Shown: positions 27,764 through 64,000, counted from the first letter of the stretch. The stretch is DNA of 64,000 bases from Clostridia bacterium (GCA_017505525.1 JAFVPB010000007.1:1-64000); one strand, 5' to 3'. The notes: generated from the sequence alone by a model not told the origin. A program made the numbers and translations.

Positions 27764-27786
27764 ACTAAACAGAGAGGCTAATAAAT

Positions 27787-32251: not shown

Positions 32252-32253
32252 AG

Positions 32254-33096: not shown

Positions 33097-33097
33097 T

Positions 33098-35074: not shown

Positions 35075-35098
35075 AATAATAAGGGAGGGTATATTTTA

Positions 35099-37589: not shown

Positions 37590-37597
37590 AGGAAAGG

Positions 37598-38515: not shown

Positions 38516-38526
38516 GGAGAATCATT

Positions 38527-40751: not shown

Positions 40752-40752
40752 T

Positions 40753-43092: not shown

Positions 43093-43971
43093 TTATCTAC
43101 ACTTCCAACGGCGAGAATCAGAAAATTCTGTAAGAGTATTATCTTCTTTGAAGAGTTTAAATATTTTTGCCAAACGTTCTGCTTCAATTCTTAAAGCAGC
43201 TTTTCCGATACGTTCGTTGCAACCAATTGGATCATCGGCTGAGTAGGCATTGGGATAGTTTATATCCCAACCATTGCTTGCCAATCGTATTCCGGCTTTA
43301 AGTAAGTGGTCAGCTTTGTGGGTGGATTGTCCGCTTTCAATTCCAAGCCTGTCGAGATGTACAGACTCAGGGGAAATTCCCATCATATATGCTGTTTCAC
43401 CCATACAACCATGCCCAATAATCATATCCTGCTTGTGATATTTTATAATAAGCTCTTCATCTTCCTGGGTTAATTCGGGAATAGAGCCTGAGCCTTCCTT
43501 TTCAAGAATTTCAGCCATTATGTGTGGAGCGGGCAAATCCACATATGTTGTAGCAAAAACAAAATCATAATCCTTATAGTAAAGCTTTCTTGAGAAAGTG
43601 GGAAGCCATAAATTATTTCCGCCATGTGCATTGAGAACAAGTATTTTTTTGAAACCATTGTCGCTAATCTGTTCGCAAAGTTGCTCTAAAAGAAGCATTT
43701 GTGTATCGAGCGGTACACATATACTGCCGTATGGTACACTATATGGCACTTTTCCCGGGGTATCGCCAAATGTGAAGTCGGGGAAAACACATACCGTTTC
43801 AAGCTGAGATGCCATATATGTAAGGTGGCTGCCCTGAATAATATCCTGACCAAGAGGTAAATGAAGACCGTGCTTTTCAACACATCCCATAGGGATTACA
43901 CAAGTTTTTTCTGCTGCTTCGCACAACTTGGGTAATGTTTCGCTAGTGTTATACAACCAACGTGTTTCCAT
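43093..43971 (-). CDS. creatininase-family amidohydrolase (copy 2)
   Basis: A 292-residue paralogue of the 41984 protein with the same motifs PMGCVEKHGLHLPLGQD, NAHGGNN and GHGCMGETAYM. Differences cluster in residues 108-160 (strand and loop after NAHGGNN) and at the C-terminus, so substrate preference may differ. The upstream 100 bp is nearly identical to that of copy 1. A GAAAGG site lies before the ATG. Metal-dependent hydrolase, cytoplasmic. Confidence 0.88.
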   Translation of the reverse strand: METRWLYNTSETLPKLCEAAEKTCVIPMGCVEKHGLHLPLGQDIIQGSHLTYMASQLETVCVFPDFTFGDTPGKVPYSVPYGSICVPLDTQMLLLEQLCEQISDNGFKKILVLNAHGGNNLWLPTFSRKLYYKDYDFVFATTYVDLPAPHIMAEILEKEGSGSIPELTQEDEELIIKYHKQDMIIGHGCMGETAYMMGISPESVHLDRLGIESGQSTHKADHLLKAGIRLASNGWDINYPNAYSADDPIGCNERIGKAALRIEAERLAKIFKLFKEDNTLTEFSDSRRWKCR

Positions 43972-46719: not shown

Positions 46720-48126
46720 TTATTCAAAGTCTCCGCACATAATCATCATAGGGTAATCCTTGATGGGAAGATGCAAGATCCTGTAAGTTCCAAATTCATC
46801 TTTCTCATACATATCTTCCGGCAATTCATATATACTGCCATCCATCAAATCAACGATTTTTGGTACCTTATCAAAGCAAGCTATCTCAAGAGACATTGTT
46901 GATTCGTAATCTGTGGTCATAATGTTTGTGGGGCTCCAATATACAAAAGCGTAAGAACCATTGTTTTTTCTGAATCCCTGATATTTTACGTTGAGAGTAT
47001 TTACATCGTTTTCAAAAATTCTCGGCGAATATTCAGGATGCATAATAACGGGCACATCGTATAAATATATATCCTCGCAAAACAGAGAGGCAATAACCTG
47101 AAGTGCTCTGTATGAAAGCTTTGGGGTATAGGTGCCTGTTGCATGCCCGTCTTCATCAAAATCTGCCCCAAGAACGCCGAAGTAGCCAAAATCTTTATAA
47201 CTGTCGGGATTATCTACTGTGCCGTTAAGGGCTTCAAACATATCCATACAAGAAAAATATGATGTAAATTTAACGTCAGCTGATAAATCAGCGATAGCAT
47301 GCCTTAAAAGCTGCTTTGCCTGTTTAAGCTGTGTCCACGCTCCTGTATGTACGGCACCACAACCACCGCTTCTTGATTGAGAACCTGATTCCCCCTGAAC
47401 AATTTCAAGCTTTTTTCCGTAGGAAGAAGCAAGACTTTTATAGGAAGCTACAGTCTGGCAAACCGATGATTCATCTGCAGTGTATTCATGAAAAGAAATC
47501 GCATCAAGATTATCTGCTAATCCTGCCTTCAAGGCTTCGTTAAGGTAGGTAAGTTGCTTTTCACACATAACCCCGCCAATAACATACGCATTCTTATTAA
47601 CTTCTTTTATATAACGGGATGTTTTTGAAGTAAATATACCAAGCTCAGTTGCATTTACGCCTGTTTTCCAGCACCACACACCGTCAGGCTCATTCCATAT
47701 TTCAAAGGTATCTATTTTGCCTTCGTAATGATTTACTGTTGCTTTAACATAGTTTTCCCATGCTTTTTCTGCCTCCGGCGTATTTATCGGAGGAACCCCG
47801 ACAGCACCAAAAGTTTGTGCGGCAAGTTCAGAATATAATCCATTTCCGTAGCAGAGGCACATCCAAGGCTTTAATCCGTGTTCTATAAGCGAATCCACAA
47901 TAGTATCAAGCCAGGAAAAATCGTAAACTCCTTTTTCTTTTTCTGTTTTTGCCCATCCTGATTGTATGCGTGCCCATTTAACGCCAAGTGCCGAAATTTT
48001 ATCGTAACACTTTGATGGGTCGAACGCATCGCGGTCGAGCTTTTCAAATCCTAAACCAATTTTAGAAAACTTAATATCTTTTGAATTTTTTTGAGATATT
48101 TCTCCAATCTTTATCAAACGTTCCAT
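46720..48126 (-). CDS. clan-A glycosidase, GH39-like
   Basis: A 468-residue TIM-barrel glycosidase. Acid/base Glu146 is in FEIWNEPDG and the likely nucleophile Glu246 is in EIVQGESGSQ. The N-terminal ISALGVKWARIQSGW and VYDFSWLDTIVDSLIEHGLKPW are typical of GH39-like barrels. A C-terminal beta-domain ends at MIMCGDFE. No signal peptide. It heads the reverse cluster, with AGGAGGT before the ATG, and is divergent from the AraC gene at 48266. Substrate unknown; a beta-xyloside or related glycoside is likely. Confidence 0.82.
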   Translation of the reverse strand: MERLIKIGEISQKNSKDIKFSKIGLGFEKLDRDAFDPSKCYDKISALGVKWARIQSGWAKTEKEKGVYDFSWLDTIVDSLIEHGLKPWMCLCYGNGLYSELAAQTFGAVGVPPINTPEAEKAWENYVKATVNHYEGKIDTFEIWNEPDGVWCWKTGVNATELGIFTSKTSRYIKEVNKNAYVIGGVMCEKQLTYLNEALKAGLADNLDAISFHEYTADESSVCQTVASYKSLASSYGKKLEIVQGESGSQSRSGGCGAVHTGAWTQLKQAKQLLRHAIADLSADVKFTSYFSCMDMFEALNGTVDNPDSYKDFGYFGVLGADFDEDGHATGTYTPKLSYRALQVIASLFCEDIYLYDVPVIMHPEYSPRIFENDVNTLNVKYQGFRKNNGSYAFVYWSPTNIMTTDYESTMSLEIACFDKVPKIVDLMDGSIYELPEDMYEKDEFGTYRILHLPIKDYPMMIMCGDFE

Positions 48127-48159: not shown

Positions 48160-48188
48160 TTGACAAATAATTTGTCTAATGTTATAAT
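48160..48188 (+). promoter_or_regulatory. promoter of AraC gene with palindrome in spacer
   Basis: TTGACA (48160-48165), 17 bp, TATAAT (48183-48188). The perfect palindrome GACAAATAATTTGTC (48162-48176) covers the -35 box and spacer, between two divergent transcripts, so it may control both. Confidence 0.7.
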
Positions 48189-48265: not shown

Positions 48266-49075
48266 ATGAGCAAACTAACGGAATTTAACGTATTAAGTGC
48301 AGGAAGTTTCGACAGCAGATATGCTTTCGGTGGAGAAAGTGGCTATATTACAAAAGAAAGATGTCTCTCAAATTATGAACTGGAATTTTTTACAGAAAAC
48401 GGTGGAGAAACATTTATTGACGGAGAATCCTACGATATATCCAGAGGAAAGGTTCTGGTGGGAAAGCCCGGGCAAAAACGCCACAGTAAACTGCATTTTA
48501 AGGCGTGTTTTATTCATCTGGATATAAAAGAAGGTTATCTCAGGCAATGCATTGACGAATTGCCCGATTTTTTTGAAGCACAGAATAACAGAGTTTATGA
48601 GGAAATATTCCTGCGGATTACAGAACTTAATGAAGGCGATTTTGATGGAAAAGAACTTTACATCGTCTCTAAAATCTACGAACTTGTAAGTGAAATGTAT
48701 AAGGATGCTAACACAGCTAAGGTACAGATAGGGGAGCTGAATGAAAAAAAACTGGAAAGTGCAAGAGTATTTATTGAAGAAAATCACAATACTCCAATAA
48801 AACTTAAAGATATTTCAGAATTTGTGAATTTAAGCTCTGTTTACTTTCATAAGATATTTAAAAAACGTTATGGCGAAAGTCCTAATGAATATTTGCAGAG
48901 TGTAAGGCTTCTTAAAGCGAAAAATTATCTTGCCACCACAGACTGTACTGCAGAAGAAATTGCTTTTGCATGTGGATTTTCTTCACAATCATATTTCAAT
49001 TATTTTTTCAAACAAAAGGTTGGAATTCCTCCACTTCAATATAGAAGAGAAGCTCTTGGAAAATATAAAATTTAA
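48266..49075 (+). CDS. AraC-family regulator, divergent from the GH39-like cluster
   Basis: A 269-residue regulator: N-terminal cupin-like sensing domain (about 1-160) and a C-terminal double HTH with PIKLKDISEFVNLSSVYFHK and CTAEEIAFACGFSSQSYFNY, ending in the standard GIPPLQYRR. GGGCGTG precedes the ATG. It faces away from the GH39-like to GH30 cluster and probably regulates it. Its stop lies at the edge of a terminator shared with the next, convergent AraC gene. Confidence 0.9.
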   Translation: MSKLTEFNVLSAGSFDSRYAFGGESGYITKERCLSNYELEFFTENGGETFIDGESYDISRGKVLVGKPGQKRHSKLHFKACFIHLDIKEGYLRQCIDELPDFFEAQNNRVYEEIFLRITELNEGDFDGKELYIVSKIYELVSEMYKDANTAKVQIGELNEKKLESARVFIEENHNTPIKLKDISEFVNLSSVYFHKIFKKRYGESPNEYLQSVRLLKAKNYLATTDCTAEEIAFACGFSSQSYFNYFFKQKVGIPPLQYRREALGKYKI

Positions 49076-49107
49076 GGCGACTAAATTATTAGTCGCCTGT
49101 TTTTTTT
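49075..49107. terminator. shared terminator of convergent AraC genes
   Basis: AGGCGACTAA/TTAGTCGCCT with a 4-nt loop and a T-run to 49107. Both genes' stop codons lie within it. Confidence 0.8.
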
Positions 49108-49919
49108 CTGTATTGAAGCGGGGTAAACCCTGTATCCTGTTTAAATACTCTGTCGAAATCTACAAGACTGCTGAAGCCACACTGCATTGCAATATCTGTG
49201 AGGGGAATATCTGAGGATGAAAGCATTTGTTTTGCGTGAATAATGCGTATGGTTTTAAGATATTTTGGTATTGAAAGTCCCGTAATCGAATTGAATTTTC
49301 GCGAAATAGTGTATGGATCAAGAAAGAATTCCTTGGATAATAAATCCAACGTTATTTTAGATGTGTAGTTTTTTTCTATATACTTAATAATTTCAAAAAA
49401 AGTATCGTCGATGCTATGGTTTTCGTCCGGCTCAACATTGCTGCCAAGAAGAAGGAGTAATTCGCAAAGCCGTATTAATGAAACGGAAAGATATTTAGGA
49501 GAGTTTGTTTTTTCGAGTGTCTTGTTTTCCAAAGAGAAAATGCAATTTTTAAAATCCTCATAAAATTTATTCACTGGTATTATCGGGGAGCTCGATTTAA
49601 AGCATGCCGTAAGGCTTATAGGAATGCATTTTTGGATTCCCTCGATAAATTCAGGACGAAAGTTAATGCACGCACGACTTTGCGGAAGAAGCTCTCCCGA
49701 AATTGTCATATGTGGAATATAGGGAGGGATAACTGCCACACAACTTTTATCGAGCGTATATTCGTTGTCTCCGATTTTGAGTATTCTTGAGTTTTCATAC
49801 ACATACAAAATCTCATAATGGTGGTGATAATGAGATTGAGGCATTACTTTTTTATTTCTGTATGTTCTGAATTCTGCATCGTATGTAAGAGAGGCAGAGG
49901 TGAAGTTTTCATTAAACAT
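49089..49919 (-). CDS. AraC-family regulator, divergent from the SLH operon
   Basis: A 276-residue regulator: N-terminal cupin-like domain (NKKVMPQSHYHHHYEILYVY with the typical His cluster) and a C-terminal double HTH with KITLDLLSKEFFLDPYTISR and PLTDIAMQCGFSSLVDFDRV, ending GFTPLQYRKK. The frame extends to 49952, but GAGGG before the ATG at 49919 marks the likely start. It diverges from the 50204 gene, so it probably controls the S-layer operon. The gap to that gene (49920-50203) is AT-rich with no other gene. Confidence 0.88.
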   Translation of the reverse strand: MFNENFTSASLTYDAEFRTYRNKKVMPQSHYHHHYEILYVYENSRILKIGDNEYTLDKSCVAVIPPYIPHMTISGELLPQSRACINFRPEFIEGIQKCIPISLTACFKSSSPIIPVNKFYEDFKNCIFSLENKTLEKTNSPKYLSVSLIRLCELLLLLGSNVEPDENHSIDDTFFEIIKYIEKNYTSKITLDLLSKEFFLDPYTISRKFNSITGLSIPKYLKTIRIIHAKQMLSSSDIPLTDIAMQCGFSSLVDFDRVFKQDTGFTPLQYRKKTGD

Positions 49920-50203
49920 AGTTAATCCCTCTTTATAGCTGAGTTGTGGCAAAAATTGTTAAAATCAAAATTTAAATATTTCAAAATGAGAAAAGTTGCC
50001 AAAATGCGGATTTACTCATATAAATTAAGTTTAACATAAGGATGTAAAAAAGTCAACAAGCATCTTCAGGTAAAAAATTACAATTAAGAAAATGAAAAAT
50101 AAATGCAAGAATTGTTTAAAAATACTCAATAATTGTGTAGTATGATATTAAAAATAGGAGTAAAATTATATTGAGAAAGAAGTCGGTTGGGAGGGTGAAT
50201 GAT

Positions 50204-51898
50204 ATGAAAGACATCGCCGATTTAAGACTGAAAATGTCGACTAACAGATTTTATGAAAATTGTGAATCGTATGATGAAAGCACAGGACTTATATTTGGAC
50301 CAGACGGAAAAACGCATCCTACAAGAAAAAATGCAGCGTTTGTTCAAAATGTTTTTGCTTTTAAAAGTGAAAGCCACTACGCCATTGCACGAAACATACT
50401 GTATAAGTTATGTATGCTGCAAGACAGGAATCCAGAAAGCCCTACGTATGGGCTGTGGCCTACAAGCTTTGAGGAAAATCTTGCAGATATATCTTTCCCG
50501 GATTTTAATTTTGCAGATTTTATTTCATCTTCTCTTATTGGAATTTTAGAAAAGTATAGGGAATATCTTGATGAAGAATTAATAAAAGAAACGGAAAAGT
50601 CGCTTGAGCTTGCGGCATATTGTTCGATAAAAAGGCATGTTGGTCTTGATTATACAAATGTGATTTGTATGAGCTGCTTTACAATAATCAAAGCAGGAGA
50701 AATATTAAATAATCAGGAAATTTTTAATTCAGGAAAGGCTGAACTTAAAAGATTTCTTGAATACACAAGGGTGTGCGGTGCTTTTTCGGAATATAACAGT
50801 CCTAACTATATTGTTGTCGCTGCCGGAGCTATTGAAAATATGATTAAATATTTTGAAGACGAAGAATGCAGGGACATGGCTCTTGAACTCAATGATTATT
50901 TGTGGGAAATGGGAGCAAAGCACTATAGTAGTACGTTTGATGAATATACCCCGCCATACATAAGAAATTATTCTGATTTGGATAATGGAAGAGATGCCTT
51001 ATTTATCTGGTGCGTAACTGACGGAGAATACGGAAAACTGCCTGCCAAACTAAGCGGCGGTGGATTAGATACAATAAGATGCCCCAAAAAGTTTTTCCAT
51101 TTATTCGATAAAGATTTCTGGGAAGAAATCACGTATTACAGAAAAAACAATATCAGAAAAAGTGATGAGGACTTAACAATAGTAAGAAATTTAGATAGTC
51201 CCGACCTTGTTCTTTATTCATATAAAACAAAAGAATATTTGTTCGGAGCTTTTCAAAAAACTGACCTTTGGGGGCAAAGAAGAAACCTGATGCTTATTTG
51301 GAATCCCCTTTGCAAGAAATTTTTAAAGCTTTGTGCGTTAAAGGATGGCGTAGATTTCTCATCTGCTATGGCATACACTGTTCAAAATAAAGGAGAATCG
51401 TTAACGCTCCTTGGATTTGCAACAGATAATGGCGATAAGCATTACATAGTTGATCCGTTAACAGATGGAAAATTCAAAGCAAAAAAACTTTCGTTTATGA
51501 TTAAAACGGGGGGAGAAAAAAAGCTTCTCTTTGAAAAACATGGAAGTGAATTTATTCTTAGGGATGGAAAGTTCTTTGTAAGCATAAGAATAGATGATTG
51601 GTGTTTTGACGGAAAAAAAGGAGAAATCAGATTAACGGATGATGGAATTGAGTTAATCTGTTTCGAATCAGATACTCCGCGTGAAGTTAATTTGTATGAG
51701 CTTGGTATGTCATATGGTGTTATAAGTCTTTGCGTGAATGACCAGGCAAAAGCAACGGAAATAAAAACAGATGGAGAAAGAATAATGGTGAAAAATGAAA
51801 CAGGCTCCATCGAGGGCTATAATACCCCTCAAAAATATAACGATTGCATAATAAATACTTCGGTAAACAAACCGAAAGAAAAACAGGAGGAAGGATAA
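50204..51898 (+). CDS. uncharacterised intracellular protein, helical-toroid-like
   Basis: A 564-residue protein without a signal peptide. Its first 300 residues are mostly amphipathic helices with aromatic motifs (CGAFSEYNSPNYIVVAAGA, TPPYIRNYSDLDNGRDALFI), which suggests an (alpha/alpha) toroid as in many glycan lyases and hydrolases. The remainder is beta-rich. No catalytic family is recognised. A TTG at 50171 with GGAG is possible, but GGGAGGG before the ATG at 50204 is better. It overlaps the next start (TAATG), so it is co-translated with the secreted SLH protein. Confidence 0.6.
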   Translation: MKDIADLRLKMSTNRFYENCESYDESTGLIFGPDGKTHPTRKNAAFVQNVFAFKSESHYAIARNILYKLCMLQDRNPESPTYGLWPTSFEENLADISFPDFNFADFISSSLIGILEKYREYLDEELIKETEKSLELAAYCSIKRHVGLDYTNVICMSCFTIIKAGEILNNQEIFNSGKAELKRFLEYTRVCGAFSEYNSPNYIVVAAGAIENMIKYFEDEECRDMALELNDYLWEMGAKHYSSTFDEYTPPYIRNYSDLDNGRDALFIWCVTDGEYGKLPAKLSGGGLDTIRCPKKFFHLFDKDFWEEITYYRKNNIRKSDEDLTIVRNLDSPDLVLYSYKTKEYLFGAFQKTDLWGQRRNLMLIWNPLCKKFLKLCALKDGVDFSSAMAYTVQNKGESLTLLGFATDNGDKHYIVDPLTDGKFKAKKLSFMIKTGGEKKLLFEKHGSEFILRDGKFFVSIRIDDWCFDGKKGEIRLTDDGIELICFESDTPREVNLYELGMSYGVISLCVNDQAKATEIKTDGERIMVKNETGSIEGYNTPQKYNDCIINTSVNKPKEKQEEG

Positions 51899-54492
51899 TG
51901 AAAATGAAGAGAATCTTATTGATGCTGGTAGCAGTAACTATACTTGTAACATCAGCAACAAACGGCATTGGCTTTTCTGCGCAGGCGGAAGATGGCTATG
52001 TTGCAACCGCAGGGGAGCAGAGAGCGCAAAAACTGTTGAAAATTGGCGCAATATATAATGATGCAGATGCAATGGTGCTCACAAGGAGCATAAAAAGAGG
52101 CGAATTTGCAAAAATTCTTATTAAGTTCATAGGGCATAATAAGATGGTACCCAATCAGGTAACACAGAAGCCTTTTATGGATGTGGACCTCGATCATCCC
52201 TACATAAGAGAAATAAAGCAGATGAAGGATTTGGGAATTGTTACCGATGCCAAGCTTTTAAAGTTCAGGCCGGATGATTACATAACTGTTTTCGAAGCTG
52301 CAAATATGCTTGATGCGGCTTTAGGCTACAGAAAATTAGCAAATAAAACATACTCGGCAAAACTCAATATAGTTGATGGCGTTAAGAAATCTGATGTTGC
52401 AGTTGCAACTCTTGATGATATTTATGTAATGCTTGAAAACTGTCTTGGAATAACAATTTTTGAGCCTGAGCTTTGGGAAGTTGCTAATGGCACAACAAAG
52501 GAAACAGTAATAGAAAGATATTATAAGCTTGAAAAGCGCAGAGGTATTGTAACGGCAAATTCTATCAGTGGTATTTCAGAAGCTGACAAGCATTCGGCAA
52601 AAGGATATTTGGAAATTGATGGTGTTCATTTCAAATCACAGGATCCCGAATATGAAAAATATCTTGGATATACAGTTGATTTCTATATTGATAAATCCAA
52701 TAATGAAATTTACTATATTATTCCCCATACAACTAATCAAACTTTAACTATTGATTCAGATGATATTTTGCCGGGAAATCAAAATACTATTTACTATAAG
52801 AACGATAAAGAAAACACAAAGAAGGTAACTGTAAGAAATTATGATGTTATCTATAATAAAAAAGCTTATAGCGGATACGGAAATCTTAACACAGTATTTT
52901 CGAATATAGACGGAGAGATTACTCTTCTCGACAGAAACGGAGATAAGGTGTATGATGTTATCTTTGTTGATTCTTATACTTATCATTATATCACGGCAGT
53001 TGATATGCAGTTTAAATACATCTATGATGAAGAAACAAACACACGTATCGACCTTTCTGATGAAGAGAATACCTTAATTTATAAGGCCGACGGCACTCGC
53101 ATAAAAATGGCGGGAATTCCAACAGATGTTTTAGCTTCGGTGGCTGAAAGCAAAAATACCAAAGGCGATAAAATAACAACTGTATACCTCAGCGATGCAG
53201 CAATTGAGGGTAAGATAGATGAAATATCAGAGGAAGAAATAGTTATAAACGGCACAGCATATAAGTGTGTTGATAGCATTTATAACAAAGCTTCACTTGG
53301 TCTTTACGGCAATTTCTACATTGGAAAAACTGGTAAAATTGTAAAATTTATTCCTCTTGCAGAATCCGTATGGAATTTGGGCATAGTTCATTCTAAGGAT
53401 GGCGGAGACGGAACCTTCTCAAATCCGAAGGTAAGAATTTTCACTTCTGATGGTGAATTTAAGGTTTACAATATATTACAAAATGCCCGTGCTGATAAAA
53501 CAATGGAGTATACAAACGGAATCAAAGGCGATGCAGAAATTTGTGATGCTCTTGTAGTTGGCAGTGTTGTAAGATATCAGCTTAATGATAACGAAGAAAT
53601 TAAAAGAGTACAGATTACCGATACGGGAAGTGGCTCAGGACAAAGCAAGCTTTATGCAAACGATACAGGCTTAAGACTTCTTAAGAGCGGCAATTCCTTC
53701 CATTACTATAATAATATGTATGCAACTTCTTTTGGTACAAACACCAATACTAAGTTCTTTATTATACCCACTGAGGAAAACTGGCTGAATGAAGAGGAAT
53801 TTTCAGCAAAGACTGTGACATTCCAGAACGACAGAGATATTAAATATTATTATGAAGCATATACCTTTGGAAAAAAAGATTTACCAATTGCGGATGTTAT
53901 GGTTATAAAGGGCGGCTCGGCAGCAACCGTTAAAACAAACGACTATATGTTTGTTTTAAATAAGATTCGCGGAGTTATAGAAAATGGAGAAGAAATGTTC
54001 AGCCTTTCGGGAATAAGTAAAGGTAAGAGTGTAAGCTTTTTATCAGCGGATAATCCGAAGACCAAATACAATGTAGAAGAGGGAGATATCCTTATTGTAC
54101 ATACAAAGGCTGACGGCACCGTGGCTGACATAATTAAGGTGTTTACGCCAAATAAGCTTAATGACTCAGATGCTTATATAAGGCCTGGCGTGAATGATTT
54201 TAATCTGGGAATGACTGCAACAAGAGCAACTGGTGCGTATGTTTATGTTTACGCAACCGTTACAGGAGTAACGGGAGAAGGTATTTCCTTTGAATATATA
54301 GAACCAGGCACAGGTAACACAGTAGAAAGATTTGGATTCTTAAGCGGTACTACATTTGCACGTTACAATATTAATGAGACTGATATTGAAGCAGTAGCGG
54401 GAAGTGTTTACGATATTGTTATCGGAGATAAAGTTCTTATTTTGACAAACTACGCTAAACCCAATCAGATTGTAGTATTTAAAAACAGATAA
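51898..54492 (+). CDS. secreted SLH-type protein, 865 residues
   Basis: Signal peptide (about 1-30, ending FSAQA), then a degenerate SLH-like region (about 32-160: RAQKLLKIGAIYNDADAMVL, SIKRGEFAKILIKF, YIREIKQMKDLGIV) and a long beta-rich, Asn/Asp/Lys-rich C-terminal part with no recognised fold. SLH domains bind pyruvylated cell-wall polymer, so it is probably cell-wall attached. The longer frame starts at 51844, but AGGAGGAAGG precedes the ATG at 51898, which overlaps the previous stop. It may be a structural surface or binding protein. Confidence 0.75.
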   Translation: MKMKRILLMLVAVTILVTSATNGIGFSAQAEDGYVATAGEQRAQKLLKIGAIYNDADAMVLTRSIKRGEFAKILIKFIGHNKMVPNQVTQKPFMDVDLDHPYIREIKQMKDLGIVTDAKLLKFRPDDYITVFEAANMLDAALGYRKLANKTYSAKLNIVDGVKKSDVAVATLDDIYVMLENCLGITIFEPELWEVANGTTKETVIERYYKLEKRRGIVTANSISGISEADKHSAKGYLEIDGVHFKSQDPEYEKYLGYTVDFYIDKSNNEIYYIIPHTTNQTLTIDSDDILPGNQNTIYYKNDKENTKKVTVRNYDVIYNKKAYSGYGNLNTVFSNIDGEITLLDRNGDKVYDVIFVDSYTYHYITAVDMQFKYIYDEETNTRIDLSDEENTLIYKADGTRIKMAGIPTDVLASVAESKNTKGDKITTVYLSDAAIEGKIDEISEEEIVINGTAYKCVDSIYNKASLGLYGNFYIGKTGKIVKFIPLAESVWNLGIVHSKDGGDGTFSNPKVRIFTSDGEFKVYNILQNARADKTMEYTNGIKGDAEICDALVVGSVVRYQLNDNEEIKRVQITDTGSGSGQSKLYANDTGLRLLKSGNSFHYYNNMYATSFGTNTNTKFFIIPTEENWLNEEEFSAKTVTFQNDRDIKYYYEAYTFGKKDLPIADVMVIKGGSAATVKTNDYMFVLNKIRGVIENGEEMFSLSGISKGKSVSFLSADNPKTKYNVEEGDILIVHTKADGTVADIIKVFTPNKLNDSDAYIRPGVNDFNLGMTATRATGAYVYVYATVTGVTGEGISFEYIEPGTGNTVERFGFLSGTTFARYNINETDIEAVAGSVYDIVIGDKVLILTNYAKPNQIVVFKNR

Positions 54493-54503
54493 GGAGGAGA
54501 ACT

Positions 54504-56144
54504 ATGAAAAAGATATTTATTTGTTTGCTTGCCTTTGTTTTTTCAGTAAACACATTGGTTTTAGCAACTGATATAAGTGTGGATTTCAGCCTGAGAACAG
54601 TTAATGTAACAGTTACAGATAATCTGGGCGTGGAAAATCCAACACTGCAGCTTTTTACTGCGAATAAAACAGAGCTGTTATACGCGGATGAGGGCACAAA
54701 AAATGAAGACGGAAGCTACAGTTTTGATTCTTTCAAAATGAGAGATGATGCTGTAAGCGGAGATTATGTTGTAAGAATCGGTGAAAACGGAAAGCTTACC
54801 GAAAAAACAGTTTATTATCCATCCAAAGGCGAAATGGTGGCAATGATTAATTTCATTAAATCAGAAGATTTCAGTGCTGCAGGCCTTGTAAGCACGTATC
54901 ACAGAATTCTGGGAATTGAAAGTAATCTTTTAGAAAATGCTGATAAGTTGTGGATTGGAAAAATAGAAACAGAAATCAAAAAGCTTTCATTAGATAATAC
55001 TACCGATGAAGCAATAATTAATGGAAGAACAGACGTAAAAGATACTTTAGTTTTATGGACAGACATAATCAAGCTTTATACTGCAAAGGATAAGGACTCG
55101 CTTGATGAGGCAATAGCAAAAGTTGGCGGTCTTGATTTAAAATACTACAAATATATTACCGATTACGAGCACATAGGTAAGGCAATGAGCAGCGTTGAGA
55201 TTGATATGGAAACACTTACAAAAAGTGATGTTTCTGATTTATTCGACGGAGCAATCCTTACAGGAGCTATAATTCAGAACGACTGGGAAACTGCAAGAGA
55301 TGTTTTAAAATACTATGTTGAGAAGGAGCTTCTCTCGGTTAAGAGCACATATCTTAAGGCAGGAGCAACAGTTTATAAAGACCTTCAATCTAAGAATATT
55401 ATAGACTACACTAAGCTTAGTGATGAACTTGAAGATAGCTACAAGGATAAAAATCAGGGAGGAAGCGACGGCGGTTCAGGCGGCTCAGGCGGCTCTTCGG
55501 GAGGAACTGTAGTTCCCTCTGATAAAACTATCATATCTGGCGTAACCAATTCGCAGGCTGAAGAGGTTGTAAATAATCAAAACAATGCAGTTTCAATGTT
55601 TAACGATATTTCATCTCATCCATGGGCACAGGAAGCTATTATTGAGCTTGCAAGAATGGGCGCAATTAACGGAAAGAGCGAAAAAACATTTGCCCCTAAC
55701 GACAATATAACGAGAGCAGAATTCGTTAAAATAATCGTTAATACATTTAAGCTTAATGATAATTCGGCAACTGTAAGCTTTGCAGATGTAAATGCAAACC
55801 ACTGGTATTACAACGCGGTGGCATCAGCAAGCAAGCTTGGATTAGTAAACGGCATGAATGAAAATAACTTTGGAGCACTTGAAAATATTTCAAGAGAAGA
55901 TATGGCAGTTATTGCATCACGCCTTATCGAACTCTTAAATATAAAGAAAGCAGAAAACAAAGTGGAATTCAGTGATAAAAACGACATAGCAGATTATGCT
56001 GCCGAGGCAATTGATACTCTTTCAGGTCTTGGTATTATAAACGGTATGGGAGATGGAACATTTTCTCCGAAGACCAACGTTACAAGAGCGCAGGGCGCAA
56101 AGGTTATATACGAATTACACAAAATTTCGAGGAGGGCTGAATAA
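54504..56144 (+). CDS. secreted protein with three C-terminal SLH domains
   Basis: A 546-residue exported protein: signal peptide (about 1-21), an N-terminal beta-domain (22-120), a helical middle (120-315), a Gly/Ser-rich linker (about 318-335) and three SLH modules (about 368-546: HPWAQEAIIELARMGAINGK, VNANHWYYNAVASASKLGLV, NDIADYAAEAIDTLSGLGII). The SLH region anchors it to the wall while the helical part projects outward. AAGGAGG precedes the ATG; the stop overlaps the next start (TAATG). Role unknown. Confidence 0.85.
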   Translation: MKKIFICLLAFVFSVNTLVLATDISVDFSLRTVNVTVTDNLGVENPTLQLFTANKTELLYADEGTKNEDGSYSFDSFKMRDDAVSGDYVVRIGENGKLTEKTVYYPSKGEMVAMINFIKSEDFSAAGLVSTYHRILGIESNLLENADKLWIGKIETEIKKLSLDNTTDEAIINGRTDVKDTLVLWTDIIKLYTAKDKDSLDEAIAKVGGLDLKYYKYITDYEHIGKAMSSVEIDMETLTKSDVSDLFDGAILTGAIIQNDWETARDVLKYYVEKELLSVKSTYLKAGATVYKDLQSKNIIDYTKLSDELEDSYKDKNQGGSDGGSGGSGGSSGGTVVPSDKTIISGVTNSQAEEVVNNQNNAVSMFNDISSHPWAQEAIIELARMGAINGKSEKTFAPNDNITRAEFVKIIVNTFKLNDNSATVSFADVNANHWYYNAVASASKLGLVNGMNENNFGALENISREDMAVIASRLIELLNIKKAENKVEFSDKNDIADYAAEAIDTLSGLGIINGMGDGTFSPKTNVTRAQGAKVIYELHKISRRAE

Positions 56145-59100
56145 TGAAAAAAATAAGCTTATTTGTTGCTATTGTAATGTTATTTAGCCTTATTCCCACA
56201 ATGGGAATTAATGCTGCTGACGGAATAGTGGCAAACTCAACCTTTAACGAAGGCTCAAACGGCTGGAGAGGCTCAGGCGGAACCTTTGTTCTTGAAAATG
56301 ACGATGCTTTGGGAATTCAGGGCGGTAAGTCATACAGAACAAAGTATTCAACCACAAATACTGAATTTCGTTGCCTTAACGTAAATCTCACTCCCGGAAG
56401 ATTATACGAGCTTCAGTTTTATGCAAAGTCGGATACAGTAGGCGCTGAAATCCAGGGAATCAGAACATACAGAAGCGATGGTGTGTATTACTTTGATAAT
56501 ATTGCACTTACTAAAAGCTGGAAAAAATACAGTGTTGAATTTGTTGCTCCCACAAGAACAAATCACGGTGCAGAAGCAACTGTTGATGGAGATATGTATT
56601 TCCGTCTTATGACGCCCGGTTCATCAGTATGGCTTGACGAGGTTTACTTTATAGACCCCACTGTAGTTGAAGAAGAAAAGATAGAGTACAGTGAACCCTA
56701 TGAAGAATATAAATATTCAGCCTCTGCAAATGCAATTAATATGGATGGCTTTGCAGATACTAAGGGGCATTGGGCAGAATTAACAATAACACTTATGAAA
56801 AACGAAAATGTTGTTTCAGGTGTTGGCAACGGAATGTTCCTTCCCAATAAAAAAGTAACGCGCGCAGAATTCTTAAAGATGCTTACTGCAAAGCTTAATG
56901 TTGAAGAGCGTGAATATAAGGGTGCTTATGCAGATGTTAAAGCAGAAAAATGGTACAGCGGCATTGTGCAAAATGCAATTGAAATGGGAATTATTTCACC
57001 TGTGCTTATTGAAAACGGAAACTTCAAGCCCGATAGTGAAGTAAGCCGTGAGGATGCTGCCGTATTTGTAAGCAGCTATGTAGATTATATTGGTCTTGGC
57101 GATAAAGAAAGTGCCAATATGTTCACAGATGACAGTGCAATAGATGCGCAAAAGAAGGAAAGCGTATACAATGCTGTGAAAAAAGGTGTGATAAACGGCT
57201 ACACAGACGGAAGCTTTTCTCCCAAAAAGATATTAACAAGAGCAGAAGCCGTGCAGATTATCCGTAATATATTGGAATATGACGGGCCGATGGCAGTTTA
57301 TGTTAATCAAAAAACGGGTAAGAAAGGTAACCCCGGTACGATTGAAGCACCGTTTAAAAATCTTGAAGAGGCAACAGAATATATAGACGCACATAACGAC
57401 AAAATGGACCATCATCTTTATGTTCTTATGCAAGGCGAAATTTTTGTTGATGAAACAATTGCACTTACCCCAAAAGACACAGGAAATGGTGCATATAGCG
57501 TAATATATTCATCCTACGGAAATGAGCAGGCGTTAATTTCAGGCGGTAAGCATTTCAAAGGCGGCTGGGAAGACGATAATACCGCACTTGGAATTAAAAA
57601 GCTCTTTGTTGGAGAAGGCGTTAAAACACGCCAGATGTTTGTAAATGGTATGCGTATGACACGTGCGAAAACCGATACAGGCTTTAAAAATCCATCCTAT
57701 ATCACAGATGATAAGGCAGGATACTATACAGAGGATATGTATTTTGCAAATCACAGAGACATAGACGATTTAGAATTTGTATGGCTTGTTACATGGACAG
57801 AGCCGAGAGTAACAGCTACCAAGGTTGAACCTATGGGCGAGGGCCTTAAAATAACGATGGAGCAGCCCGGTTTCAAATATGCAGTAAACAAAGGTCATTT
57901 AGCAGTCGATCTGCCCGACCATTTTGAAAATCAGTATGAATTTATTGATGAGCCCGGAGAATGGTATCTGGATAAAGAAGGCTGGCTTTACTATATTCCT
58001 TACGATTTTATAGATTTACAAACAGCAGATATTGTACTTCCCGTAACAGAGAAGCTTATAACTGTTTATGGAACTAAAGAAAACAAAGCTAAGAATATTT
58101 CGTTTATAAACGTTGGTTTTGGATATAACACATGGCTTCGTCCAAGCGGAGAGAACGGTTTTTCAGATGCTCAGGGCGGAAGATTCCGTGAGGGTGCAGA
58201 CCATATCCCCGATTCATCAGTTTGGGTACAGTATACAGATAATGTTACGTTTAAAGATTGTACCTTCTCAAAGCTTGGAAGTACAGCACTTAACGTAACT
58301 GATAATGTTACCGATGTTAATATTATAGGTAACCATATTTATGATATTTCAGGATGCGGAATGTATATAGGTAACCATAATGCCGATGGTAAAACTGTTT
58401 TCGGTGCAGCAAATGAAGATTATCCTTCTGAAAGAATAGCAATACAAAATAACTACATACACGATTACGGTGTTGAATATGGCTCGTCAGACGGTATTGA
58501 GACTATGGCTGCAAGCTATGTAAACATATCGAATAATGAAGTGTACAACGGAAGATATTCGGGTATCGTTGTAGGCTATGGTAAAAACAGAGCAGCAGGC
58601 TATAAATATGCAATTGATGTAGAGAAAAACTACGTTCACGATGTGCTGAACGGTCATGTTTACGATGGCGGCGCAATATACGTTACTGAAATGACGGATG
58701 GTACATTCGACCGTTACAACACAATTCAGTATAACTATCTTGAAAATCAGCGCAATTATTCAGCTGTGCTGTATCTTGATAACAGCTCAAGCTTCTGGAA
58801 TGTTAACCATAACGTTGTAGATACAAGGAGAATGCCCCTGTGGCACAGAAATCGCCAGACGGCACTTAAGCCTCCTATCTGGTTCTCATCAGGCGGTTGG
58901 GACAACAACCCAGTCGATTATAACTACATATCAATCGAATCGCAGAGCGAAAACCATCATGGCGGCGACTACACAAATCCCGAGGGCGAAGCAGCAACCT
59001 TTGGCGAGCATATCTACTATATTGATTTAGAAAAAGAACAGTGGCCTGACGAGGCAAAGGGTATCATACAAAATGCAGGACTTACACAGGAATACCTTGC

Positions 59101-60316
59101 AAAATTCAAGGAAGATAATGTTCAGTATCTTGAAATCGATACCTACACAAAGCACTACCTTAAAGCAGGCGAATCGCTTAATGCTTACGAGGCTGCAGGT
59201 ATCAGAGGCTACGGAAGAAAGAGCGAGGAAAGATCGCTTGAGAACGAAAAGATATACTTTACAACAGACCGTCCTGATTTAATAAAAGTAGAACCCGATG
59301 GAACAGTTACAAGCCTTGCAACAGGACTTGCAAACGTAAGAGTTATACATATAAAGGACGATATTGTAAGAATAAAAACATTCCAGGTTTCATCTGCCGA
59401 TGAATACGACCACGCAGAGCTTGATATGAATGAAATGAACATCTATGTTGGAAATACATATAACATAGGTACAAAGGCATTTACAAAGCTTGGCGATGAA
59501 ATTGAAGATATAAGCATTACTTATAAAACGGACGATGAAAGTGTTGCAACAGTTGATGAAAACGGTAATGTAACTGCAAAGGGCGAGGGAACTACGAAGC
59601 TTCACGTTTATACAGACTGCCTTGATGTTAAGGAAGAGCTTGTAATCCCCGTAAACGTTAAGAACAGACCTAAGAGCGATACATTTGATTTAAGCGAATA
59701 TTTCGTTGTTGATTTCGAGGGTGCAAAGGCAGAAAACTGGGATAAATGGTTCACTCCTGTTGTGGGAGACCAGGCAGTTGCCTACGAGGACGGAGTTAAG
59801 CTTATTCCCCCAAGAAGAGTTGCTTCATATACGAAATACAACTGCGACGAGCTTCTCAGAATGAAGGTCACAATGAATCATACAACAAAGTGGCAGAGCC
59901 TTAACCTCAGAGCAACAGACCATACAAAACAGTATGATGAGGTTGGCATAAGTAACTATATGATAAGCTTTGCTCAGGACAAAGGACCTGCAATTGAACG
60001 TTTTGCTTACGACCTTGCCTACAGCAAGATGGACCGTACAGGATCAAACAGGAATGGACAGAAGTATGTTGACTTCGATTTCCAGAATGGTAAGGAATAC
60101 GAAATGATTCTCGGTTGTGTTACTTATGACGATTACACAGATGTTATCGTAGTAGTAGATGGTCAGCTTGTGGGCAGATGGAAAGACACAGGCGAGCAGT
60201 ATAACACTACAACAGGTGAAGTAGCGCGCGAAAACCTGAATATTAAACAAAAGGGTTGCTTCCAGGTACATTCACGTGCCCGTGACGCAAGCGTTGTTCT
60301 TAAACCTGCAGACTGA
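56144..60316 (+). CDS. SLH-anchored beta-helix protein, glycan-active enzyme-like
   Basis: A 1390-residue exported protein: signal peptide (1-24), a CBM-like jelly-roll (about 27-180), three SLH modules (about 200-375), a right-handed parallel beta-helix (about 382-960), two bacterial Ig-like (BIG2) modules (about 1030-1170) and a C-terminal lectin-like domain (about 1185-1390). The entry to the helix, with IYVN-type start, GTIEAPFKNLEEA and RQMFVNGMRMTRAK, resembles GH120/GH141-type beta-helix glycosidases. HDYGVEYGSSDGIE and GAIYVTEMTDG carry candidate acidic residues. It is probably a wall-attached enzyme for a plant or host polysaccharide. Confidence 0.82.
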   Translation: MKKISLFVAIVMLFSLIPTMGINAADGIVANSTFNEGSNGWRGSGGTFVLENDDALGIQGGKSYRTKYSTTNTEFRCLNVNLTPGRLYELQFYAKSDTVGAEIQGIRTYRSDGVYYFDNIALTKSWKKYSVEFVAPTRTNHGAEATVDGDMYFRLMTPGSSVWLDEVYFIDPTVVEEEKIEYSEPYEEYKYSASANAINMDGFADTKGHWAELTITLMKNENVVSGVGNGMFLPNKKVTRAEFLKMLTAKLNVEEREYKGAYADVKAEKWYSGIVQNAIEMGIISPVLIENGNFKPDSEVSREDAAVFVSSYVDYIGLGDKESANMFTDDSAIDAQKKESVYNAVKKGVINGYTDGSFSPKKILTRAEAVQIIRNILEYDGPMAVYVNQKTGKKGNPGTIEAPFKNLEEATEYIDAHNDKMDHHLYVLMQGEIFVDETIALTPKDTGNGAYSVIYSSYGNEQALISGGKHFKGGWEDDNTALGIKKLFVGEGVKTRQMFVNGMRMTRAKTDTGFKNPSYITDDKAGYYTEDMYFANHRDIDDLEFVWLVTWTEPRVTATKVEPMGEGLKITMEQPGFKYAVNKGHLAVDLPDHFENQYEFIDEPGEWYLDKEGWLYYIPYDFIDLQTADIVLPVTEKLITVYGTKENKAKNISFINVGFGYNTWLRPSGENGFSDAQGGRFREGADHIPDSSVWVQYTDNVTFKDCTFSKLGSTALNVTDNVTDVNIIGNHIYDISGCGMYIGNHNADGKTVFGAANEDYPSERIAIQNNYIHDYGVEYGSSDGIETMAASYVNISNNEVYNGRYSGIVVGYGKNRAAGYKYAIDVEKNYVHDVLNGHVYDGGAIYVTEMTDGTFDRYNTIQYNYLENQRNYSAVLYLDNSSSFWNVNHNVVDTRRMPLWHRNRQTALKPPIWFSSGGWDNNPVDYNYISIESQSENHHGGDYTNPEGEAATFGEHIYYIDLEKEQWPDEAKGIIQNAGLTQEYLAKFKEDNVQYLEIDTYTKHYLKAGESLNAYEAAGIRGYGRKSEERSLENEKIYFTTDRPDLIKVEPDGTVTSLATGLANVRVIHIKDDIVRIKTFQVSSADEYDHAELDMNEMNIYVGNTYNIGTKAFTKLGDEIEDISITYKTDDESVATVDENGNVTAKGEGTTKLHVYTDCLDVKEELVIPVNVKNRPKSDTFDLSEYFVVDFEGAKAENWDKWFTPVVGDQAVAYEDGVKLIPPRRVASYTKYNCDELLRMKVTMNHTTKWQSLNLRATDHTKQYDEVGISNYMISFAQDKGPAIERFAYDLAYSKMDRTGSNRNGQKYVDFDFQNGKEYEMILGCVTYDDYTDVIVVVDGQLVGRWKDTGEQYNTTTGEVARENLNIKQKGCFQVHSRARDASVVLKPAD

Positions 60317-60380
60317 TTAAGAATTTCAGCATCGGCGGATTCTTCCGCCGATGCAAAGAAAAATATAAAAGGGTGATGTG

Positions 60381-63300
60381 ATGAAGAAAATAAGTTTTGT
60401 ACTGATTTTCGCCATTATGGTTAATCTCTTGCCGATGCAGCTTGTTACTGCAACAACACAAGAGGATTGGCTTCGTCCTGATATGAATATAGATTTAAGC
60501 GGTTTTTCAGATACAGAGGATCACTGGATAAATGAAACAGCAGTTCTTTTGAAAAACGAAGGAATTGCATTAGCTGATGAAGACGGAAATTTCAATCCTG
60601 AAGAAAAAATTACAAGAGGGGAATTTATAGAATTTCTGCTTGCAAAGGAAATTAATGAAAGCAGCAGCTACAGTGTTTCCTACACTGATATTGATGAAAC
60701 CGACAGAGTTTATCCATATATACAGGCAGCGTGCGAAAATGGTTATATAGATCCGATTTTGATTGTGGATAATAAATTTTTACCCGATCATTCTCTTACA
60801 AGAGAAGAGGCTTGCGTGTTTATTGCAAAATATGCAGAAAAGAAAGGCTTTGCAAATTCAGTGAAGCTGAATACGTTTAAAGACGACAGAGCAATTCATT
60901 CCTGCTATAAAAATGCAGTATACAGTGCGGTTAAAAAGGGATTTATTGAAGGCTACACAGATGGGTATATTCGCCCGAGAGAGTATATGACAAAGGCAGA
61001 GGCTCTTGAGTGCGTAAGAAAAATTTATGAATATTATGTTCCTCTTGCAATTTATGTAGACGGAGAAAACGGAAGTGATACGTATGACGGAACTATTGAA
61101 AATCCCGTTAAAACACTTCAAAAAGCAACCGATATTGCAGGAGAATACAAGAATTATATTGATACAAATAAAATTGACCACAACCTTAATATGAATATAA
61201 GGTTGCAAAATGAAATATTTGTGGAAAACACTTTAGCTCTCGACAGCACAGATTCGCCATTAGGTGACAGTCAGTTAATCTATTCTTCTTATGGGGAAGA
61301 GCAGGCTGTTATTTCCGGAGGAAGGCATTTCAAAGGAAACTGGCAGGATTCGGGCGACAGAGGCATTAAAAAGCTTTATGTTGGCACAGATATAAAAACA
61401 CGCCAGATGTTTGTAAATGGTATGAGAATGACTCGTGCAAGAACAGAATCAGGCTTCAAAGAAGCTTCCTATTTAATAAAGGAAGAAAAAGCATACTACA
61501 CGGAAGACGATATTTTTGTATCGGCTGAAGATGTAGCGGGGCTTGAAATGGTATTCCTTGTTACATGGACAGAGCCGAGGATTACGGCAGTTTCCAAGGA
61601 AATATCGGGAGACGGATGTATTTTGAATATGCAAACAGGCTTTAACAGTCTGATTAATAAAAATCATCTTTCGGTAAATATGCCCGACCATTTCGAGAAT
61701 ATGTATGAATTTCTCGATGAACCTGGCGAGTGGTATCTCGATAACGACGGATGGCTTTACTACTGGCCATACGATTTTGTAAATCTCAGCACCGCTGATA
61801 TTGTGCTTCCCGTAACAGACGGCTTGGTTACCGTGATAGGAGAGGCAGATAATCAGGTAAAGAATATCGCGTTTGTTGATGTTGCATTTAAGTATTCCTC
61901 ATGGATGCTCCCAAGCGGAGAAAGAGGATATTCAGATGCACAGGGCGGCAGAATCCGTCACACGCGCGACCATATCCCGGGCGCTTCGGTTTGGGTAAGA
62001 TTTGCTGATAATATAACAATTGAGGATTGCACGTTCTCCAAGCTTGGCGCAAGCGGACTTAACGCAACCGATAACGTAACCGATATACGCATTTACGGAA
62101 ACCATATATATGATATTTCAGGATGCGGAATGTATGTGGGAAATCACGGCGCAGAGGGATATACCATTCCTACAGGCGGAGTTGCTTACGACCCATATTT
62201 ATCTGAAAGAATTATCATATCGAATAACTTTATTCACGACTATGGCATTGAATACGGCTCTTCCGACGGACTTGAAGTGATGGCGGCATCTTATGTTGAG
62301 GTAAGTCATAACGAGGTTGCTCACGGAAGATATTCCGGTATAGTTGTGGGCTATGGTAAAAATGGCGCTAAAAAGGATTCAAGCGGAAACAAAATTGCAG
62401 AAGCAGGATATAAATATGCAATCGATGTGGAAAACAACTACGTTCACGATGTGCTTAACGGCCATATTTATGATGGCGGTTCGATATATGTTACAGAATT
62501 GACAGACGGAACATTTGACCGTTACAACACAATTCAGAACAACTATCTTGAAAATCAGCGTAACAGAACATCCATATTATATCTTGATAACAGCTCAAGC
62601 TTCTGGAATGTTAACCATAATGTGGTTGATACAAGAAGAATGCCATTATGGCATAGAAACCGTCAGTCTATTCTTCTACCTCCTATGTGGTTTTCATCAG
62701 GTGGATGGGATAACAACCCCGTTGACTATAACTACATTTCAAAAGAATCTGAAAATGAAAGCCATAAGGGCGGCGACTACACAAATCCTGAGGGAGAAGC
62801 GGCAACCTTTGGAGAGCATATCTACTATGTCGATTTAGAAAACGAAGAATGGCCAAGCGAGGCAAAGAGCATTATACAAAATGCAGGTCTTACACAAGAG
62901 TATCTTGAAAAATATTCTTATGCATATCCAATGCTTGAGATTGACACATACTCTGTACATTATATAGAGGAAGGAAATACCTTAAATATTCCAAGTGCAG
63001 CAGGTAATTACACAAGCAACGTGAAAAGCTACGGAAGAAAATATGCTGAGGCACAAAGCAATGATTATTCAGTTTACTATTCTACCGATAAACCTGATGT
63101 TGTTTCTGTAAGCAGCGCAGGTGTGGTTACACCGCTCGGTCAGGGAACTGCCAATGTAAGAATTATGCAGAAAACAGGAGACGTACTCAGAGTAAAAAGC
63201 GTACCTGTTGTAACCGATGATGTGTTTACCTACGTGGAAACAGATGTTGACGATATGTATATGTATGTGGGTAACAACTACGATATTGGCCACACTGCAT

Positions 63301-64000
63301 ACACGGTAAGTGGAAAAGAAATCGATTCAACGGCAACATATCAGAGTACAGATACCTCGATTGCCACAGTTGACACGCAGGGCAGCGTTACGGCAGTAAA
63401 AGCGGGGGAAACCTATGTTACTGTGAATGTAACGGCAGAAAATAAAACTGTTTCAAAAACAGTGCTTGTTCACGTTAAGGATCGACCAACATCAGAAGGT
63501 ATTAACTTAGATGAGTACCACGTTGTTGATTTTGAAGGTGCAAGAGCAGAAAACTTCGGAATGTGGTATAACGGCGACAGTAACAATCCCGCTACAGCTT
63601 TTGGCAAAGGCATTCGAATAGCACCTATGTGGTATGCATCAGCCTATAAAAAATATAACTGCGACGAGCTTTTAAAATTTAATATGAAGGTTAATAAAAC
63701 GGGGGATAATCCCGTTTGGCTGGAATTAAAAGCCTCTAATCATAAAGAAGCTTATGATGCAGAAAATCAAAGCCACTATTTTATTCAGTTCAGAGAAGGA
63801 GAACCATTCTTAGTTACACGATACGAAACGGGCGTGAAGAGTGATGGCAACCGTCATAATGGGCCTGTTCAGAGCTTGGTTGACTTTAAATACGGAACAG
63901 AATACGAGGTTATAGTGGGTTGCGTTGAAAACGGATATTCCACCGAAGTAATAATGCTGATGAGGGAAGCGGGAACGGATGATGAATTTGCCACTGCAAT
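60381..64000 (+). CDS. second SLH-anchored beta-helix protein (partial, runs off the end)
   Basis: A paralogue of the preceding protein, open for over 1200 codons to the end of the window without a stop. Signal peptide (about 1-26), three SLH modules directly after it (about 38-215; no CBM-like domain), a beta-helix (about 220-870) with RQMFVNGMRMTRAR, HDYGIEYGSSDGLE and GSIYVTELTDG, two BIG2-type modules (about 890-1040) and the start of the same C-terminal domain. GGGTGATG precedes the ATG. Much of the helix is strongly similar to the neighbour, so this is a tandem gene duplication. Confidence 0.85.
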   Translation, partial: MKKISFVLIFAIMVNLLPMQLVTATTQEDWLRPDMNIDLSGFSDTEDHWINETAVLLKNEGIALADEDGNFNPEEKITRGEFIEFLLAKEINESSSYSVSYTDIDETDRVYPYIQAACENGYIDPILIVDNKFLPDHSLTREEACVFIAKYAEKKGFANSVKLNTFKDDRAIHSCYKNAVYSAVKKGFIEGYTDGYIRPREYMTKAEALECVRKIYEYYVPLAIYVDGENGSDTYDGTIENPVKTLQKATDIAGEYKNYIDTNKIDHNLNMNIRLQNEIFVENTLALDSTDSPLGDSQLIYSSYGEEQAVISGGRHFKGNWQDSGDRGIKKLYVGTDIKTRQMFVNGMRMTRARTESGFKEASYLIKEEKAYYTEDDIFVSAEDVAGLEMVFLVTWTEPRITAVSKEISGDGCILNMQTGFNSLINKNHLSVNMPDHFENMYEFLDEPGEWYLDNDGWLYYWPYDFVNLSTADIVLPVTDGLVTVIGEADNQVKNIAFVDVAFKYSSWMLPSGERGYSDAQGGRIRHTRDHIPGASVWVRFADNITIEDCTFSKLGASGLNATDNVTDIRIYGNHIYDISGCGMYVGNHGAEGYTIPTGGVAYDPYLSERIIISNNFIHDYGIEYGSSDGLEVMAASYVEVSHNEVAHGRYSGIVVGYGKNGAKKDSSGNKIAEAGYKYAIDVENNYVHDVLNGHIYDGGSIYVTELTDGTFDRYNTIQNNYLENQRNRTSILYLDNSSSFWNVNHNVVDTRRMPLWHRNRQSILLPPMWFSSGGWDNNPVDYNYISKESENESHKGGDYTNPEGEAATFGEHIYYVDLENEEWPSEAKSIIQNAGLTQEYLEKYSYAYPMLEIDTYSVHYIEEGNTLNIPSAAGNYTSNVKSYGRKYAEAQSNDYSVYYSTDKPDVVSVSSAGVVTPLGQGTANVRIMQKTGDVLRVKSVPVVTDDVFTYVETDVDDMYMYVGNNYDIGHTAYTVSGKEIDSTATYQSTDTSIATVDTQGSVTAVKAGETYVTVNVTAENKTVSKTVLVHVKDRPTSEGINLDEYHVVDFEGARAENFGMWYNGDSNNPATAFGKGIRIAPMWYASAYKKYNCDELLKFNMKVNKTGDNPVWLELKASNHKEAYDAENQSHYFIQFREGEPFLVTRYETGVKSDGNRHNGPVQSLVDFKYGTEYEVIVGCVENGYSTEVIMLMREAGTDDEFATA

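Follow-up and report, generated by a model that had tools for sequence, protein, structure and literature searches.

The window analysed here is a 64,000-nucleotide stretch of DNA from a Clostridia bacterium, corresponding to positions 1-64000 of an 86,074-base contig in a 2.4-Mb genome of 71 contigs that is 95% complete. Positions 50204-64000 form a single plus-strand operon of five co-directional genes, with gaps of -1, 11, -1, and 61 nt at the junctions and a GGAGG-type ribosome site preceding most of the genes (Table 1). A sequence-only reading of this DNA had described an operon encoding one helical intracellular protein and four exported proteins, and the five genes are indeed there, at the place it gave and on one strand. 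The first product, HelA, is cytoplasmic, as had been proposed, while signal-peptide-like N termini were judged by eye for S864, S546, GH141a, and GH141b. A promoter scan of the region gave results at chance level, with 48 found and 52 expected.

Table 1 Features of the operon and of the clusters upstream of it, in contig positions.
Feature	Position	Strand	Basis
Uronate catabolism: UxaC isomerase, SDR dehydrogenase, UxuA mannonate dehydratase	30917-34039	+	
GH39, RraA-like, and M55 peptidase, downstream of uronate genes	36042-39309	+	
GH30 enzyme, no signal peptide seen	39426-40787	-	
Mandelate-racemase-type sugar-acid dehydratase	44854-46014	-	Best NCBIfam: galactonate dehydratase, above cut-off
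GH39-like glycosidase, first gene of neighbouring minus-strand cluster	46720-48126	-	
Second AraC-family regulator	48266-49075	+	
AraC-family regulator with sugar-binding cupin, divergent from operon	49089-49952	-	
HelA, 564-aa cytoplasmic protein	50204-51898	+	Fold model, family alignment
S864, secreted 864-aa protein	51898-54492	+	Family profile; multi-copy unnamed family
S546, secreted 546-aa SLH protein	54504-56144	+	PF00395, E 7e-41
GH141a, 1390-aa SLH-anchored GH141-like beta-helix enzyme	56144-60316	+	Pfam, PDB sequence match
GH141b, 1240-aa SLH-anchored GH141-like beta-helix enzyme	60378-64000 (ends at contig position 64100)	+	Pfam

The strand array extends past the window to the end of the contig and comprises 20 plus-strand genes, with gaps of -34 to 161 nt. 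GH141b is followed by genes for two secreted CBM_4_9 proteins and a GH88-family enzyme, and then by genes for an ABC binding protein and two permeases at contig positions 71166-74652, on the same strand and in an unbroken array. The binding protein and first permease of this importer were identified by Pfam, and the second permease by sequence and position. The earlier statement that the system is without ABC uptake genes was thus mistaken: these genes lie 7 kb past the end of the window, and they seemed to be absent because the window stops before them. Further genes in the array encode two GH20 enzymes, a BcrAD/ROK-type kinase, a SIS protein, a DUF4838/GH67N protein, an FAD oxidoreductase, and a GH20C enzyme. 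The end of the array (contig positions 76001-86074), with its GH20C, SIS (GKRP-like), BcrAD kinase, and DUF4838/GH67N genes, points to amino-sugar use.

The last two genes of the operon encode large beta-helix proteins, as the sequence-only reading had recognized, with matches to the Pfam models SLH, Beta_helix, GH141_M, and Big_2. GH141a and GH141b each contain three SLH repeats, a GH141 insertion domain, a right-handed beta-helix, and Big_2 domains, with PF21231 and PF13229 exceeding the Pfam cut-off in both. The two proteins are 52% identical over 1223 aa, and therefore look like the result of a tandem duplication. Their best solved relative is the GH141 fucosidase BT_1002 (PDB 5mqp, E 3.5e-27), in which the aspartates D523 and D564 are essential (PMC12786026). 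These residues align with D841 and D879 in GH141a and with D699 and D737 in GH141b, so that both catalytic positions are kept; the offset in PDB chain numbering used for this alignment was inferred from the 41-residue spacing. Characterized GH141 members, including the fucosidase BT1002, the xylanase Xyn141E, and the Wf141 endo-fucanases, act on fucosides, xylan, or fucoidan (PMC12786026). Because members of the family cut such different glycans, the substrate of GH141a and GH141b is not predictable from family membership. The combination of GH141-like enzymes with SLH repeats supports the earlier proposal of a glycan-degradation operon with S-layer anchoring.

Upstream of the operon, the clusters for UxaC, UxuA, SDR, GH39, GH30, the sugar-acid dehydratase, and creatininases can process hexuronates. 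These clusters, together with a GH88/GH105 enzyme in the same operon as HelA, bear out the link to uronate metabolism that had been suggested. The genome also contains KduI-family matches and three GH88 genes, two of which are within S864 operons. Coupling of the operon to the upstream uronate clusters is plausible from their shared theme and position, and the clusters may serve substrates other than those of the operon. Several further features were observed in this region. Two creatininase-family genes on the minus strand (41984-42856 and 43093-43971) form a tandem pair with a 300-nt core that is 80% identical, indicating a recent duplication, and an SDR-like C-terminal fragment lies between them. 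A perfect sigma-70 consensus promoter, TTGACA-17-TATAAT with an extended TG, is found at 48160-48188 on the plus strand, where the GH39 cluster and the AraC gene at 48266 diverge. Four proteins encoded beside the uronate genes (26420-28659 and 34091-36103, both plus strand) have no convincing Pfam match, and one of them has a weak match to alkaline ceramidase.

The sequence-only reading had assigned SLH domains to all four exported proteins. Pfam SLH is present in three of them, whereas for S864 the assignment holds only through family-level evidence. In S546, three canonical SLH repeats at the C terminus follow an N-terminal part of no assigned kind. S864, the 865-residue protein of that reading, is 864 aa long when counted from its ATG. 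It has no Pfam match and no NCBIfam match above cut-off, and a curated model did not find SLH repeats in it. Positions 1-149 of its family profile nevertheless match the SLH regions of other proteins, which covers about the first 140 residues of S864 and indicates diverged repeats, and paralogues in contigs C49 and C26 carry Pfam SLH in the N-terminal region. Beyond this SLH-like part is a long beta-rich remainder; a structure prediction from three alignment rows gave a pLDDT of 39 and was not used. Within a surface complex, the protein could serve to bind glycan or act as a spacer.

S864 is the second unnamed family at the locus, besides HelA. The statement that these two proteins have no recognized family stands in that neither has a Pfam or NCBIfam name above cut-off, but both belong to large families. 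There are nine full-length copies of S864 in this genome (E below 1e-190) and two partial ones, and relatives occur in about 57 of 196 genomes of the class (best E below 1e-100, among the matches listed). A larger tally of 123 of 196 was discarded as a count of full S864 proteins; it also takes in matches confined to SLH repeats. Of the nine full-length copies, eight adjoin an SLH gene on the same strand, and for the ninth this gene is one gene away. Across 19 loci in this genome and its family, the S864 and SLH genes are adjacent in 14 and within two genes of each other in 16. By our own estimate from 39 SLH-encoding frames in a genome of roughly 2,200 genes, such adjacency is expected by chance in about 3-4% of cases. 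Genes around the S864 copies encode importers, CBM_4_9, pectate lyase, Lyase_8, Hepar_II_III_C, GH88, GH36, and GH38 proteins. HelA and S864 occur together in one strand array at three further Clostridia loci, and a fourth locus has HelA flanked by an ABC importer and an SLH protein. This genome also contains a sister locus (L204; G000 contig C26, 18001-38000) with genes for a pectate-lyase-2 protein, S864, an SLH protein, GH88, and a probable importer, all in one strand array.

HelA has no Pfam family (E up to 0.1), no NCBIfam match above cut-off, and no PDB sequence match. A first search for relatives with the single sequence found none. A search of 291 genomes of the class gave a few distant copies, three of which were aligned with HelA as the next query. 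With this four-sequence alignment, a pattern-restricted search of 84,980 species genomes gave 529 stretches encoding relatives, with E-values that are relative to the candidates only, and 80 of these loci were kept for analysis. The 80 come from Clostridia, Paenibacillus, Planctomycetota, Verrucomicrobiota, Chloroflexota, Armatimonadota, Omnitrophota, and Spirochaetota, and with 34-44% identity shared over some 500 residues their kinship with one another is hardly in doubt. The window sequence is 22-33% identical to its relatives and is the most divergent row of the alignment, differing at 43 of the 101 best-conserved columns; in a tree it sits on a very long branch and its placement is unsure. 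It keeps N152, E196, N198, S199, P200, Y202, R254, Y256, W356, Q358, D384, and H413, of which N152, Y202, R254, Y256, and H413 are candidate catalytic residues. Signal-like hydrophobic segments open most of the relatives from Planctomycetota and Verrucomicrobiota but not those from Bacillota, as expected for an enzyme acting behind an import step. A second, more distant HelA-like branch of about 620-660 aa (loci L003-L007 and L010) shares the Asn, E-x-x-S-x-x-Y, and GP-x-x-R-x-Y motifs, with a Pfam match in none of four proteins scanned. In nine HelA relatives the Hepar_II_III, Alginate_lyase, and Lyase_8 models gave no match (E up to 1 or 10). A glyoxalase match of HelA and DUF5346, TPR, and DUF3471 matches of its relatives were below cut-offs and were dismissed as chance. 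Neither the HelA family nor the S864 family was found described in a literature search conducted largely outside subscription journals. A CAZy family without a Pfam model may already cover HelA, which is the main doubt about its novelty.

An AlphaFold model of HelA calculated from 67 alignment rows has a pLDDT of 90.9 and a pTM of 0.90. The description of the protein as helical applies to an alpha-toroid at residues 2-302, but the other half of the model is an antiparallel beta domain (305-555). In a Foldseek search the top match was human dermatan-sulfate epimerase 1 (5e-9), followed by the PL35 GAGase VII (1.9e-7), with a chondroitinase and PL17, PL15, PL33, PL12, and PL8 enzymes among the other top matches. 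A VIA-align comparison with heparinase III gave the highest Z, 13.3, and an rmsd of 8.6 with 426 residues aligned. TM-scores for the fold matches are modest (0.31-0.46) and the rmsd is high, and therefore the match is at the level of the fold and not that of a close relative. Matches to complement C3d and terpene cyclase were set aside: they cover the toroid only, at a Z of 11-12, a level at which caution is advised for helical folds. PL26 and PL27 were likewise rejected, with no Pfam match of any kind and, for PL27, the opposite domain order.

The predicted active site of HelA can be compared with those of the lyases. Calculated from the residue numbers of published work, the catalytic Asn and Tyr are 53-60 residues apart in PL12, PL17, PL33, PL35, PL39, and PL40 (PMC12088678, PMC11848413, PMC12915356). 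In HelA, N152 and Y202 are 50 residues apart, each opening a toroid helix, and are found in 66 and 67 of the 67 alignment rows, respectively. A Hepar_II_III protein found in this analysis (L158) has the same spacing of 50 between N200 and Y250 and the motif E-x-x-S-P-x-Y, which equals E196-YNSPN-Y202 of HelA. Blind to this motif, hhalign paired N152 and Y202 with the Asn and Tyr of L158, with a score that was not significant. Profile comparisons of HelA with lyases gave E-values of 0.24 and 0.0043, and a GH88 control fell in between at 0.07. Because of that hhalign score and the position of the control, sequence kinship of HelA with known lyase families is unproven. For the catalytic His that known lyases carry in the beta domain, HelA has no certain counterpart: H413 is invariant among the HelA rows but is 211 residues after the Tyr, compared with 114-180 in known lyases, and at position 380 the window sequence has Lys where 54 of 67 rows have His. 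The Hepar_II_III_N and Alginate_lyase models have no match in this genome.

The genes around HelA bear on its function. GH88/GH105 unsaturated uronyl hydrolases are encoded on the same strand in 18 of the 80 loci, mostly by the adjacent gene, and PL22 oligogalacturonate lyases in 12 of 80, mostly by the next gene; 28 of 80 loci, spread over Bacillota, Spirochaetota, and Verrucomicrobiota, have one or the other near HelA. Other recurrent same-strand neighbours are importers, GH3, and AraC/Cache regulators. GH88/GH105 and PL22 enzymes act on 4,5-unsaturated uronyl ends or on precursors of them, and such ends are products of beta-elimination. Because of these neighbours and the fold, the best reading is that HelA would be an oligosaccharide lyase that works inside the cell and belongs to an undescribed family. 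The best Foldseek match, human dermatan-sulfate epimerase 1, raises the alternative that HelA is a uronate C5-epimerase or dehydratase-like enzyme, which would abstract the same C5 proton and then re-protonate without cleavage, and work on PL33 notes a common fold and catalytic apparatus in lyases and epimerases. No epimerase would make the unsaturated products on which the enzymes at those 28 loci act, however, and we consider this alternative quite improbable. Many (alpha/alpha) barrels are hydrolases. HelA could accordingly be a glycoside hydrolase, for example a glucuronidase, built on a toroid scaffold and acting alongside GH88/GH105 on the same oligosaccharides, and the appearance of GH146 and GH76 lower in the fold list and the conserved acids E91, E196, and D384 would suit such an enzyme. 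The proteins that match both domains over more than 400 residues are lyases and an epimerase, however, and together with the placement of the Asn and Tyr this makes a hydrolase unlikely, if somewhat less so than an epimerase.

Gram-positive polysaccharide-utilization loci (gpPULs) were defined in 2016, and the definition requires a transporter (Sheridan, PMC5320581). The sequence-only reading had called the system a Gram-positive counterpart of such loci, and with the transporter found past the window end this description fits. Degrading enzymes are represented by GH141-like, GH88, and GH20 domains, carbohydrate transport by the ABC importer, and transcriptional regulation by the two AraC genes at 48266 and 49089. 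Gene order, protein families, the predicted HelA fold, the retained residues, and the recurrent neighbours were obtained by computation, whereas the choice of a lyase over an epimerase or hydrolase, the substrate, and co-regulation are inferred. We think it somewhat probable that the locus is a gpPUL for a uronate-containing glycan with HelA as the internal lyase. In this process, SLH-anchored GH141-like enzymes would cut the glycan outside the cell, where S864, S546, and the two CBM_4_9 proteins would help hold it at the surface, and the binding protein and two permeases would import the oligosaccharides. Inside the cell, HelA would cleave these by beta-elimination at uronic acid, the GH88/GH105 enzyme would take off the unsaturated uronyl group, and the GH20 enzymes and kinase would process amino sugars. 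The acids would pass to central metabolism through the uronate cluster that lies 11-20 kb upstream. In combination with the uronate enzymes, the GH20, kinase, and SIS genes would be in keeping with a hexosamine-uronate glycan (a glycosaminoglycan, for example), for which we have a weak preference that falls short of a prediction, and the partnership with PL22 in Paenibacillus points to pectin for other HelA members. The GH20, BcrAD kinase, and SIS genes could instead recycle wall amino sugars in a module for cell-surface maintenance or cell-wall glycan, with the SLH proteins as parts of the S-layer, as the 39 SLH-encoding frames in the genome and the M55 D-aminopeptidase upstream might suggest. 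The ABC importer, GH88/GH105, GH141, CBM_4_9, and AraC genes together have the make-up of a catabolic locus, however, and S864 copies elsewhere are near pectate lyase, Lyase_8, and GH88 genes, so that a wall module appears improbable.

As a gpPUL the locus is of a known kind, and what is new is its two unnamed protein families, HelA and S864, and its S-layer architecture. To our knowledge, Clostridia lack the SusC/SusD pair that serves as a locus marker in Bacteroidota. Tentatively, and with more doubt than confidence, HelA could found an undescribed family of polysaccharide or oligosaccharide lyases spanning many phyla and S864 could be a recurring marker of S-layer-anchored loci in Clostridia, in the manner of SusC/SusD. 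Should HelA prove to be a lyase, this would give a function to a family that Pfam and NCBIfam do not name and that reaches across Bacillota, Planctomycetota, Verrucomicrobiota, Chloroflexota, and others, and the ability of Gram-positive gut and soil bacteria to cleave acidic oligosaccharides in the cytoplasm could be predicted from their genomes. If S864 marks surface-anchored utilization loci, it provides a means to find and count them in Clostridia.

The components of the locus both resemble and depart from known systems. HelA shares a two-domain fold over more than 400 residues, a near-equal Asn/Tyr spacing, and uronate-linked neighbours with the toroid and beta-sheet uronate lyases (PL8, 12, 15, 17, 21, 33, 35, 39, and 40) and dermatan-sulfate epimerase. 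Unlike those lyases, it has no detectable sequence family match, its candidate beta-domain His is placed differently, it is cytoplasmic in Bacillota, and at 564 aa it is shorter than most. GH141a and GH141b agree with GH141 in their beta-helix, insertion domain above the Pfam cut-off, and two aligned essential Asp residues, but differ from characterized members in carrying SLH in front and Big_2 behind, with lengths of about 1240-1390 aa. With three canonical repeats each, S546, GH141a, and GH141b are alike as SLH-domain surface proteins, while S864 differs in combining only diverged SLH repeats with a beta-rich part of no named family. The locus as a whole has degrading enzymes, an ABC importer, and an AraC regulator in one place, as do gpPULs, and differs from gpPULs as described in the accessible sections of their definition (PMC5320581) in its SLH-held enzymes, its S864 and S546 proteins, and the presence of HelA.
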